A stretch of DNA of 64,000 nucleotides from positions 124,001-188,000 of the forward strand of contig NZ_ARWA01000001.1 of NCBI RefSeq assembly GCF_000385335.1, read 5' to 3'. The notes under the pieces were generated by a model, which was not told the DNA's origin, searched no databases, and saw only the letters and a program-made list of their open reading frames with translations. This DNA comes from Methyloferula stellata AR4. Its GTDB lineage: Bacteria > Pseudomonadota > Alphaproteobacteria > Rhizobiales > Beijerinckiaceae. This document shows, one piece after another, positions 2,185 to 44,285 of the stretch (positions within the stretch are counted from its first letter, which is position 1; the number at the start of each line of letters is the position of its first letter). The translations under genes and the position numbers were made by a program.

Positions 2185-3387
2185 CTAAAGGGCGGTCAGC
2201 GTAAATCCCATCCATTGCGCGGCGAGCAAAGCGCAGCCGAAGAGCAGAACCAAGAGCGCGGCACCGACTTCGATCAGCCGTCCGAACACCAATGCGCGCG
2301 GCGAACCTGGACCCGCGAATTTCACCGCCGTGCGTTTGGCATAAACCGCGAAAGCCGCCAAAGCGCCGGTGGTGATGGCGGTGCCAAGCGACATCGCGAA
2401 AGTCGCGCCGACGCCCACCAAAAACATATCCTGCGCGAGCGCGAAGACCAGAACGAGGATCGCTCCTGAGCATGGCCTTGCACCCGCCGTCAGCATGGTT
2501 AGCAAGGCTCCTTTCCAGACGAAGCCTTCATCGAGTTTTGTCGGGTCCATCGCTAGGAAATGCCCGCAGTCGGGACCATGCACATGATCCTGCGCGCCAT
2601 TATCGGCGAAGAAAGCCGATGTGCCTCGTCCCATCGTCGACAGAGACGGTGCGCTTGCCGCGAAGATCTCTTCGAGAGCGGGATGAGGAAAAGTGGGTAC
2701 CGGTTTTCCGCCCGCATCCCGCTCTAATCTATAGGAATCGATCACGTTCATGATTTTGGATTGGTTAAATCCAAAATCATCGTGATCTTGTGCGCGCGGC
2801 ATGGCGCTGAGCGCGGTGGCGAAGGCCGCGCCTTTGCGCCAAAGAAGAAGAACGCCGAGGGCGACGATACCGAAATAGCTCGCCGTCTCGATCAGATTGG
2901 CGGCAGCGGTCATGCGTTGCGCGGTCGCGTGAAAGATCAAGGCGGCGATACCGACGAGACCCACGGCGACAAGGCCTTGCAACACGGCGGCAAGCAGCGA
3001 AATGACGAGACCGCGCCGAAGCGCTCTTTCATTCGAGACCATGTAGGAGGTCACGACCGCCTTACCATGGCCCGGCCCTGCGGCATGAAACACGCCATAG
3101 GCAAAGCTGACGCCGGCCAGCGCCCAACCTGCCGATTCGTGCGCCTTGATAGCGTGCAACGCCTGCGTCATTTGGCGATAGAAAACGCTTTCCTGCCCGA
3201 TGATCCAGGCGCCGAATCCGCTCACATTGCCGACTGCGCCTTCGTTCGCGCCGACGGCGAAAGGATGATGCGCGCCTTGTGCGAAAGCGCCATCGCAAGA
3301 GAAAATGATGAGCGTGATAAAGCCTAGCGCTAAGCCCGCAGCAAGCGAATCGAGCGTTTCAATCCTGCGCATGATGGATGATTTCAT
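2185..3387 (-). CDS. NicO-family nickel/cobalt transporter carrying an in-frame repeat
   Basis: 400 residues if started at the ATG at 3387, which has GAAGG about 9 bases upstream; a GTG at 3417 would add ten residues. An N-terminal hydrophobic segment and about six further membrane helices are visible. The motif HAAGPGHGK (about 101-109) is the metal-site signature of the NicO/RcnA group, which moves Ni2+ or Co2+ across the inner membrane. A loop holds a second His cluster (DHVHGPDCGH). Residues 200-238 are encoded by a 113-bp palindromic repeat (2676-2788) that reads through in frame and ends just before the His-containing loop. The DUF1007 gene upstream on the same strand is a usual partner. 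Export is more likely than uptake given the RcnA-like His loop, but that is inference. Confidence 0.88.
   Translation of the reverse strand: MKSSIMRRIETLDSLAAGLALGFITLIIFSCDGAFAQGAHHPFAVGANEGAVGNVSGFGAWIIGQESVFYRQMTQALHAIKAHESAGWALAGVSFAYGVFHAAGPGHGKAVVTSYMVSNERALRRGLVISLLAAVLQGLVAVGLVGIAALIFHATAQRMTAAANLIETASYFGIVALGVLLLWRKGAAFATALSAMPRAQDHDDFGFNQSKIMNVIDSYRLERDAGGKPVPTFPHPALEEIFAASAPSLSTMGRGTSAFFADNGAQDHVHGPDCGHFLAMDPTKLDEGFVWKGALLTMLTAGARPCSGAILVLVFALAQDMFLVGVGATFAMSLGTAITTGALAAFAVYAKRTAVKFAGPGSPRALVFGRLIEVGAALLVLLFGCALLAAQWMGFTLTAL
2676..2788 (-). repeat. RPE-like palindromic element inside the nicO-type gene
   Basis: On the minus strand the element begins AGATCACGATGATTTTGGAT and contains a perfect hairpin (ATGATTTTGGATT facing AATCCAAAATCAT). 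It ends with a second imperfect stem, GAGCGGGATG. A copy of exactly the same length lies at 44173-44285. Here it has no stop codon and adds about 38 residues to the transporter. Confidence 0.85.
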
Positions 3388-3611: not shown

Positions 3612-4295
3612 TTACGGGCACGCGATGATGATTCGGTCGGCGAGCTTCACGCCGAAATTGGTGCCGGGCGACAGGCCGCTGAAAAAGGCTTCCGACAGTT
3701 TCTTGGTTTCCTCGGCTTGCAGCGGATTCGCGCCGAGCACATTGGCCGAACAGCCCTTCGGGGCGTTGATGAGCGTGACGGGATCTTTCGAGTCGAGACT
3801 GAAAGCGACGAAATAGGTCGGATCGTAGATCTGCAGCGAAAAGGCCTTTGACGCGCGTGCAGGAGTCTTCAAAGGCAGTGTAAATCGCAAGACGACGAGC
3901 TTGTCGTCGCGTTCTTCGAGCACGTAATCGGTCGGCTCGCCGAAGGCGACCTTGACGCCGGCTTCCTTCGCATAAGTGAAATCGTCGAACTCGGCCAAGG
4001 ATTCGATATTGGTCTTGGCGAGCGGCGCAAGCTCTTCAGGCGTTGGCGGCTTGCCGTTCTTGCCGAGGCCTTCGGTCGCAAAGGCCGAATACATTTCATC
4101 GAAGACCCAAGCGTTGCGAACGGCCTTGATCAAACCGGACTGATCGAAGATGATTTCCGTGCGCCCGGTGACCCAGACATGCGGATGCGCTTCGGCTGGC
4201 TGCCCCAGGCCGATAAGGCCAATCGCAAAGCAAACCAGCAAAGCGGCGGCCCGAGGCGCGGCGAGCAGCGTTCCGTGCAGGGCTTTTCCGATCAC
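3612..4295 (-). CDS. DUF1007 periplasmic protein, partner of the nickel/cobalt transporter
   Basis: 227 residues. A signal peptide is clear (hydrophobic core about 13-32, ending in AEA). It is followed at once by HPHVWVTGR, a His-rich N-terminus typical of DUF1007 and a plausible metal ligand once the signal is removed. The family has no proven activity but is regularly encoded beside NicO permeases, and is thought to deliver or accept metal in the periplasm. The transporter follows on the same strand after about 220 bases filled with repeats, so co-transcription is possible but interrupted. Length is normal for the family. Function is inferred from neighbours. Confidence 0.85.
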   Translation of the reverse strand: MIGKALHGTLLAAPRAAALLVCFAIGLIGLGQPAEAHPHVWVTGRTEIIFDQSGLIKAVRNAWVFDEMYSAFATEGLGKNGKPPTPEELAPLAKTNIESLAEFDDFTYAKEAGVKVAFGEPTDYVLEERDDKLVVLRFTLPLKTPARASKAFSLQIYDPTYFVAFSLDSKDPVTLINAPKGCSANVLGANPLQAEETKKLSEAFFSGLSPGTNFGVKLADRIIIACP

Positions 4296-44172: not shown

Positions 44173-44285
44173 AGATCACGATGATTTTGGATCGAATCGA
44201 TCCAAAATCATGGATGTGATCGATTCTAATAAGTTAGGGCGGGATGCGGGCGCAAAACCGCTTACACTTTTGCTCATCCCGCCCT
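44173..44285 (+). repeat. RPE-like palindromic element, intergenic copy
   Basis: It starts AGATCACGATGATTTTGGAT and ends CTCATCCCGCCCT, exactly 113 bases like the copy within the NicO gene at 2676-2788. The first 45 bases are nearly identical and the hairpin GATTTTGGATCG/CGATCCAAAATC is perfect. Translated in the matching frame it reads DHDDFGSNRSKIMDVIDS, close to DHDDFGFNQSKIMNVIDS in the transporter. Confidence 0.85.

Follow-up and report, generated by a model that had tools for sequence, protein, structure and literature searches.

A nickel/cobalt transporter gene of Methyloferula stellata AR4 carries, in frame, a 114-bp mobile repeat with two hairpin arms. We are confident, on the evidence as a whole, that this is a recent copy of a non-autonomous element of the CIR/RIME kind, one that would be mobilised in trans, would enter genes with indifference to frame and be sorted there by selection, and would add a near-neutral peptide to its host. 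The insertions confirmed in conserved genes combine a stop-free frame with a length divisible by three. A first, sequence-only reading had proposed that a mobile palindromic repeat adds peptide in frame here, outside Rickettsia; this is supported by empty sites in a congener and by separate in-frame insertions elsewhere, in different genes and genera. Window positions refer to the whole stretch of 64,000 nucleotides that was analysed (Table 1).

Table 1. Features of the window discussed in the text
Feature	Position	Strand	Basis
NicO nickel/cobalt transporter gene with insert, 410 codons	2185..3417	-	ORF and Pfam PF03824
Mobile repeat of 114 bp with two hairpins, in frame; peptide DHDDFGFNQSKIMNVIDSYRLERDAGGKPVPTFPHPA followed by Leu	2675..2788	-	repeat copies and congener empty site
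Arm B, G+C-rich hairpin	2676..2724	-	folding and paired-arm analysis
GATTC (GANTC) at start of linker	2735..2739	-	sequence
Arm A, A+T-rich hairpin	2740..2787	-	folding and paired-arm analysis
DUF1007 gene, context only	3612..4295	-	ORF and Pfam
Second repeat copy, 113 bp, out of frame in last third	44173..44285	+	model match; overlapping ORFs without coding signal

The repeat in the NicO gene

The product of the host ORF matched NicO in Pfam (PF03824, E 2.8e-39), in agreement with the earlier placement of the repeat in frame within a nickel/cobalt transporter. The DUF1007 gene is the usual neighbour of NicO genes. In the direction of the gene, on the minus strand, the repeat reads AGATCACG...CCCGCTCT, equally given as AGATCACGATGATTTTGG...CTCATCCCGCTCT. 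It had been described as 113 bp at 2676-2788; the repeat was recovered, and its extent corrected to 114 bp by one base at 2675. The missed base matters, because 113 is not a multiple of three and 114 keeps the frame. No stop had been seen in the frame used, and the translation is indeed open throughout, leaving the host ORF intact.

An alignment with orthologues had been proposed as a check. It contained NicO from 29 of the 30 other genomes with a NicO match (G023 was left out) in 30 orthologue rows, two of which, L043 and L072, are one and the same congener gene. A clean gap was found, with at most four residues per row in the 37 insert columns. NicO has gained 37-38 residues, as against the approximately 38 first estimated, and these are absent from NicO of the 29 other genomes. 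The insert starts in the loop preceding the His-containing stretch, the position that had been read from the sequence and that the alignment confirmed; among orthologues this loop varies in length.

In the congener (G001, same genus) the NicO site is empty, and the proteins are 91-93% identical on both flanks. The net gain over the congener is 111 bp rather than 114, because 3 bp at the site differ. Changed codons between the two genes were 50 synonymous and 17 nonsynonymous before the insert, and 41 and 10 after it.

Between the NicO gene and its neighbour, at 2055-2131, the window also contains a G+C-rich imperfect palindrome (GCGTCATGGCCGGGC...GCGCATGACGCC), which looks like another dispersed repeat.

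Two arms and one open frame

The description of the repeat as palindromic held strongly for its pairing (-47.1 kcal/mol, z -7.6) but not for its architecture, which is two separate hairpin arms and a linker rather than one palindrome. Compared in the way that the terminal inverted repeats of a MITE would be, the ends of the element, AGATCACGATG and AGAGCGGGATG, are alike at 8 of 11 positions. GANTC, the recognition site of the CcrM methylase, was present in 26 of the 30 full copies, against an expectation of 0.24 per 114 bp from the window background. It lies at position 22, in the loop of arm A, in 12 copies and at position 50, at the start of the linker, in 11; the NicO copy has the linker site only and lacks the loop site of other copies.

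Compensatory changes keep the pairing in 10 of the 36 arm pairs, compared with 3.7 in shuffles. Strong arms with such changes would also suit a device acting at the RNA level (a terminator, an mRNA stabiliser or a small-RNA site) that sits in genes only incidentally. Several copies adjoin gene ends, and REP-like elements are credited with such roles. A hairpin needed for mobility would, however, also give compensatory change. We regard an RNA-level device as unlikely; it is no competitor to in-frame insertion, and both could hold.

Across copies, the consensus of the repeat is 113-114 nt with two arms. Taken by majority over 21 aligned copies, the consensus comes to 113 nt and would alone shift the host frame in its last third, so that a copy needs 114 nt (or 111, or 117) to keep the frame of its host. 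Of the six possible reading frames, sense frame 2 alone is free of stops in the consensus, and the NicO copy is open there too. In the in-frame inserts the first base of the element closes a codon and its last two bases (CT) open a leucine codon, which is why the inserts end in HPAL.

The second copy in the window had been taken to be of exactly the same length and to encode nearly the same peptide in the same frame. Its length is in fact 113 bp, against 114 bp for the copy in NicO, and it lies on the opposite strand. The peptide agrees over the first 29 residues or so; after that the frame shifts (end GAKPLTLLLIPP vs GGKPVPTFPHPA).

Copies, empty sites and insertion targets

A covariance model was built from 21 copies, and 150 of 2239 first-look candidates were scored. 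The M. stellata genome (G000) gave 116 model matches, and 77 places were retained once echoes on the opposite strand and some of the lowest-scoring rows had been removed. Scores of at least 42 bits were reached at 71 places, and 30 copies were full length, with at least 98 bits. A genome-wide count of copies, with the frame used inside genes, had been suggested; the 71 places provide the count, and the confirmed genic copies use one frame. Over most of the element, the NicO copy has 81-90% DNA identity to many copies at unrelated places.

For 23 of the 77 copies, flanks of 90 bases were joined and searched in the congener. Fourteen of these sites were empty, four were occupied (the MiaB remnant, 2284643, 990284 and CobB) and five were without a clear call; NicO is a further empty site. 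Because the congener keeps empty sites, the element has been mobile recently. At nine of the 14 empty sites the excised sequence aligned without gaps within five columns of the junction, indicating that nothing was duplicated or lost. Gaps of 1-13 bases were present at the remaining five (1268436, 3465504, 3087162, 1595062 and 988007), but in no case does the gap sequence duplicate the other flank. No target-site duplication was found at the 14 empty sites by comparison with G001.

Of the 30 full copies, 12 are flanked by T|A and six by T|G; TA makes up 1.9% of the dinucleotides of the window. In most cases the element has entered between a T and a purine, and it has not duplicated its target. 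A duplication of TA was ruled out, because the first A and last T of the element are near constant even at congener targets that are not TA.

The Y1 transposase domain (PF01797) was sought in 41 genomes. Matches were obtained in nine, eight of them above the cut-off, and none in the five full-length carriers (G000, G001, G011, G019 and G021); of the genomes with arm B only, G035 had one match and G026 none. The absence of PF01797 from the five full-length carriers led us to reject a Y1/RAYT transposase encoded in the carrier's own genome as the mobiliser.

The left flank of one copy (G000:C1, about 4092370-4092455, TTTTCGGTCAAGATCATGCGC...) had many matches in the congener, and is apparently a second dispersed repeat, unrelated to this one.

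Insertions in other genes

In-frame inserts were found in further genes of the M. stellata genome. A PAP2 phosphatase (659173) contains one where the congener is continuous (...WFFIAPGHF...), and a methyltransferase (965447) has one just ahead of its DYGCG motif, the congener reading ...SPDTVVLDYGCG... at this point. In NicO and the methyltransferase, changes at third codon positions, or synonymous changes, are in excess both before and after the insert. PAP2 and its congener counterpart differ in 12 synonymous and 18 nonsynonymous codons before the insert, and in 42 and 38 after it; there is no synonymous excess before the insert and little after.

CobB contains the arm-B half-element only, in frame in both M. 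stellata and G001 (VRRPFHLERDAGGKPGATFPHPAPPGH vs ...LEQD...PAPQGH), with four synonymous and two nonsynonymous changed codons between the two species. This insert is absent from all 10 other genomes with a readable site (13 were fetched), and is an older insertion.

In MiaB (G000:C1:4010223-4010415) a full copy abuts an older remnant, so that the N-terminal extension comprises two units. The remnant is common to the congener and open in both species, with two synonymous and seven nonsynonymous codons. It has no codon-position bias (4, 4 and 3 at the three positions, vs 7, 14 and 94 in the core) and is therefore untranslated or unconstrained, giving no evidence of translation. In MiaB, LivM and an ArsP-like permease the N-terminal end contains element sequence; these three were left out of the clean cases because of uncertain start codons and the bias-free MiaB remnant.

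All four full copies in Pfam-supported genes (MiaB included) were open and of a length divisible by three, compared with 6 of 26 elsewhere (p 0.008); without MiaB the figures are 3 of 3 and 7 of 27 (p 0.03), and the test is weakened in both forms because broken genes are harder to recognise. The search for interrupted genes was insensitive, recovering NicO and CobB and missing PAP2 and the methyltransferase. It returned three rows in which the element contains a stop, one (3465504) at a doubtful N-terminus and two (659173 and 437109) antisense to Pfam-supported genes. ORFs at copies 1809080, 4092455, 1595062 and 513806 had no Pfam match and were rejected as genes, those at 1595062 and 513806 being also without coding signal.

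Among the matches listed from other genomes, 21 of 45 copies with at least 101 bits kept this same frame open and had a length that is a multiple of three. Ten such open ORFs were compared with Pfam, and three proved to be genes: AddA of Nitrobacter winogradskyi, TsaD of Ensifer sp. MPMI2T and PBP1C of Methylocella silvestris TVC. Six of the ten were rejected as genic for want of a Pfam match; the one other unmatched ORF, L156, runs into the end of its locus and, by eye only, looks like an amino-acid ABC permease. Genic counts of this kind come from small samples selected for open frames and are not rates. Candidate ORFs containing the element were also judged by eye in the congener (L073, 558 codons) and in G021 (L296, MtnA-like, and L295, glycosyltransferase-like), and ORFs around copies in G151, G183 and G268 were set aside as they look spurious.

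TsaD of MPMI2T is 37 residues longer than TsaD in all five Ensifer/Sinorhizobium genomes compared, to which it is 87-94% identical. The difference lies between the same two motifs (269 vs 306; FATVPEPA-LVVAGGVAAN vs FAAVDQPA-insert-LVVAGGVAAN), and an alignment with the solved TsaD chain 3zet_B sets 47 residues against 3. The protein acts in tRNA modification, in a pathway that is essential in many bacteria; the gene is single copy in MPMI2T, whose genome yielded no other TsaD. AddA of Nitrobacter sp. 62-23, the one relative compared, is without the 38 residues at the insert site. In PBP1C (L161) the element is in frame in a single sequence.

These cases bear on whether the insertions inactivated NicO and the other genes, so that the open frame is accidental and the genes are pseudogenes in waiting. 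The insert is too young for its own substitutions to be informative, the MiaB remnant looks unconstrained, and PAP2 has little synonymous excess. We nevertheless judge inactivation improbable. In NicO and the methyltransferase the synonymous excess lies on either side of the insert, although most of this divergence may be older than the insertion; the confirmed cases keep the frame, CobB has its insert in frame in two species, and MPMI2T showed no second TsaD. As far as sequence can tell, the proteins with the insert would still work.

It might instead be supposed that the insertions were selected as a portable protein module supplying a useful peptide, such as additional Asp/His metal ligands in NicO, where DHDD and HPAL stand beside the His-containing loop of a metal transporter. 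One peptide does recur in unrelated proteins, but the single stop-free frame explains its sameness. The recipients (transporter, phosphatase, methyltransferase, TsaD, AddA, CobB) are unlike one another, and 26 of the 30 full copies lie outside any supported gene, so we think selection for the peptide very improbable. There is next to no chance that the 38 residues are an old lineage-specific NicO loop, likened to the repeat by coincidence or by copying from gene to intergene: the loop does vary in length among orthologues, but the element matches copies at unrelated places at 81-90% DNA identity, and the congener has a clean empty site between flanks 91-93% identical.

We therefore favour insertion of a mobile repeat followed by the survival of tolerable placements. 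The element would be copied by machinery acting in trans. Its insertion into genes would be roughly frame-indifferent, selection removing the harmful placements. A sense landing between codon positions 2 and 3 would give the host D-H-D-D-F-G...H-P-A-L, and the tolerated sites would be a loop, a linker or a terminus, in NicO the loop before the His-containing stretch. The frame is the same every time because only one consensus frame is stop-free, and its repeated use most likely comes from harmless insertions having survived rather than from targeting. The added residues are probably a translated, nearly neutral stretch and not a functional domain, and their function is probably nil.

Relationship to known repeat families

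Anatomy and host range point to the CIR and RIME repeats of Caulobacterales and Hyphomicrobiales rather than to Rickettsia palindromic elements (RPE). RIME are reportedly Rhizobium-specific intergenic mosaic elements, said to go back to Osteras in 1995. The present element resembles them in being full length in Sinorhizobium, including pSymB of S. meliloti 1021, and in having arm B also in series. RIME differ in being named intergenic, and the element is likened to them by description and hosts, not by sequence.

REP elements, which have hairpins and insert without duplication, are moved by RAYT Y1 transposases. The hairpins and duplication-free insertion are shared by the present element, but Y1_Tnp is missing from its own genome and from four other full-length carriers. 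The target-site duplication of MITEs was not seen at the 14 empty sites.

CIR are approximately 110 bp long, with two arms, a linker and GANTC at the loop, and are tabled without an ORF and with '?' for target duplication (PMC2229807); in Caulobacter crescentus they are given as strictly intergenic (PMC10969869). The present element has both the size and two-arm feature and the GANTC feature of CIR. The likeness covers the long inverted repeats of the arms, the linker between them and the placing of GANTC at a terminal loop. For the TA found at the ends of CIR, the observation here is T|A flanks at 12 of 30 copies and T|G at six. In contrast to the strictly intergenic CIR of PMC10969869, it lies in frame in NicO, PAP2, the methyltransferase, CobB, TsaD and AddA. 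Unlike the CIR tabled in PMC2229807 it has a stop-free sense frame 2, and the absence of target duplication, a question mark in that table, was shown here.

RPE are reported to be palindromic, approximately 100-150 bp long, ORF-bearing and in frame in unrelated conserved genes (Ogata 2000, 2002). The present element is likened to them by behaviour only, its hosts being Hyphomicrobiales and some Caulobacterales and its anatomy the two-arm, GANTC-bearing one of CIR. PMC10969869 describes in-frame insertion for RPE and allows that something comparable could happen in other prokaryotes. ERIC/RU-1, YPAL/RU-2 and RU-3 are likewise small mobile repeats with ORFs fused in frame (Delihas 2007; PMC2759123; PMC2229807); they differ in their enterobacterial hosts and in size and termini, and ERIC and YPAL are listed with target duplications (PMC2229807), whereas the present element makes none. 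By anatomy, host range and descriptions we class it as a repeat of the CIR/RIME kind working like RPE. No account of CIR/RIME repeats in frame inside genes was found in the open-licence PMC literature, as judged by title and the opening of the abstract.

We give about even credence to a wider proposition, that CIR/RIME are a coding-compatible mobile family of free-living and symbiotic alphaproteobacteria, repeatedly placing one 38-residue peptide, in the single stop-free frame, into unrelated and even essential proteins (TsaD) by a non-Y1, duplication-free route. If true, protein-coding palindromes would be a general alphaproteobacterial phenomenon and not a peculiarity of Rickettsiales. The in-frame 'selfish' palindromes of Rickettsia have been proposed as a source of new protein segments from mobile DNA, with weak selection in reduced genomes as a possible cause. 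Weak selection is a less likely excuse here, because the same behaviour occurs in genomes of 4-8 Mb with an empty site in a sister species.

The matched pairs with and without insert (NicO, PAP2, methyltransferase, TsaD and AddA) make the cost or use of the inserted peptide directly measurable. Annotators should note that repeats of the CIR/RIME kind can sit within genes. The question of target duplication for CIR-kind elements is answered by none at the sites seen here.

Distribution and arrangement in other genomes

A scan with the arm-B pattern gave at least 120 stretches. Among the 80 listed were many from Sinorhizobium/Ensifer and Nitratireductor, and the matches listed also included Nitrobacter, Methylocella, Phenylobacterium and others; the carriers named among them are Hyphomicrobiales and some Caulobacterales. 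When the peptide was searched in 249 genomes of the order, five (M. stellata included) had a match with E 1e-7 or better, and carriage is therefore patchy.

Matching plasmid records numbered 97, of which 93 were from Sinorhizobium. In the best 60 of the 97, there was no listed gene under the match in 52, six were unannotated and two matches touched a gene, the gene tables being incomplete. pSymB of S. meliloti 1021 has a full-length copy with 122 bits, and full-length copies were present elsewhere in Sinorhizobium too.

Arm B occurs in series at 58-bp steps in Sinorhizobium saheli (L218:4217-4434), and the two arms can therefore spread separately. Two to three head-to-tail copies of the element were seen in G021 (L297:2579-2896) and also at L298 and L300; those at L297 and L298 keep one frame throughout and give a tandem peptide repeat in candidate ORFs. 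In a plasmid of Terrarubrum flagellatum (L308:2480-2589) pxpB is annotated as starting at a codon within a copy of the element, and a gene start may thus be supplied by the repeat.
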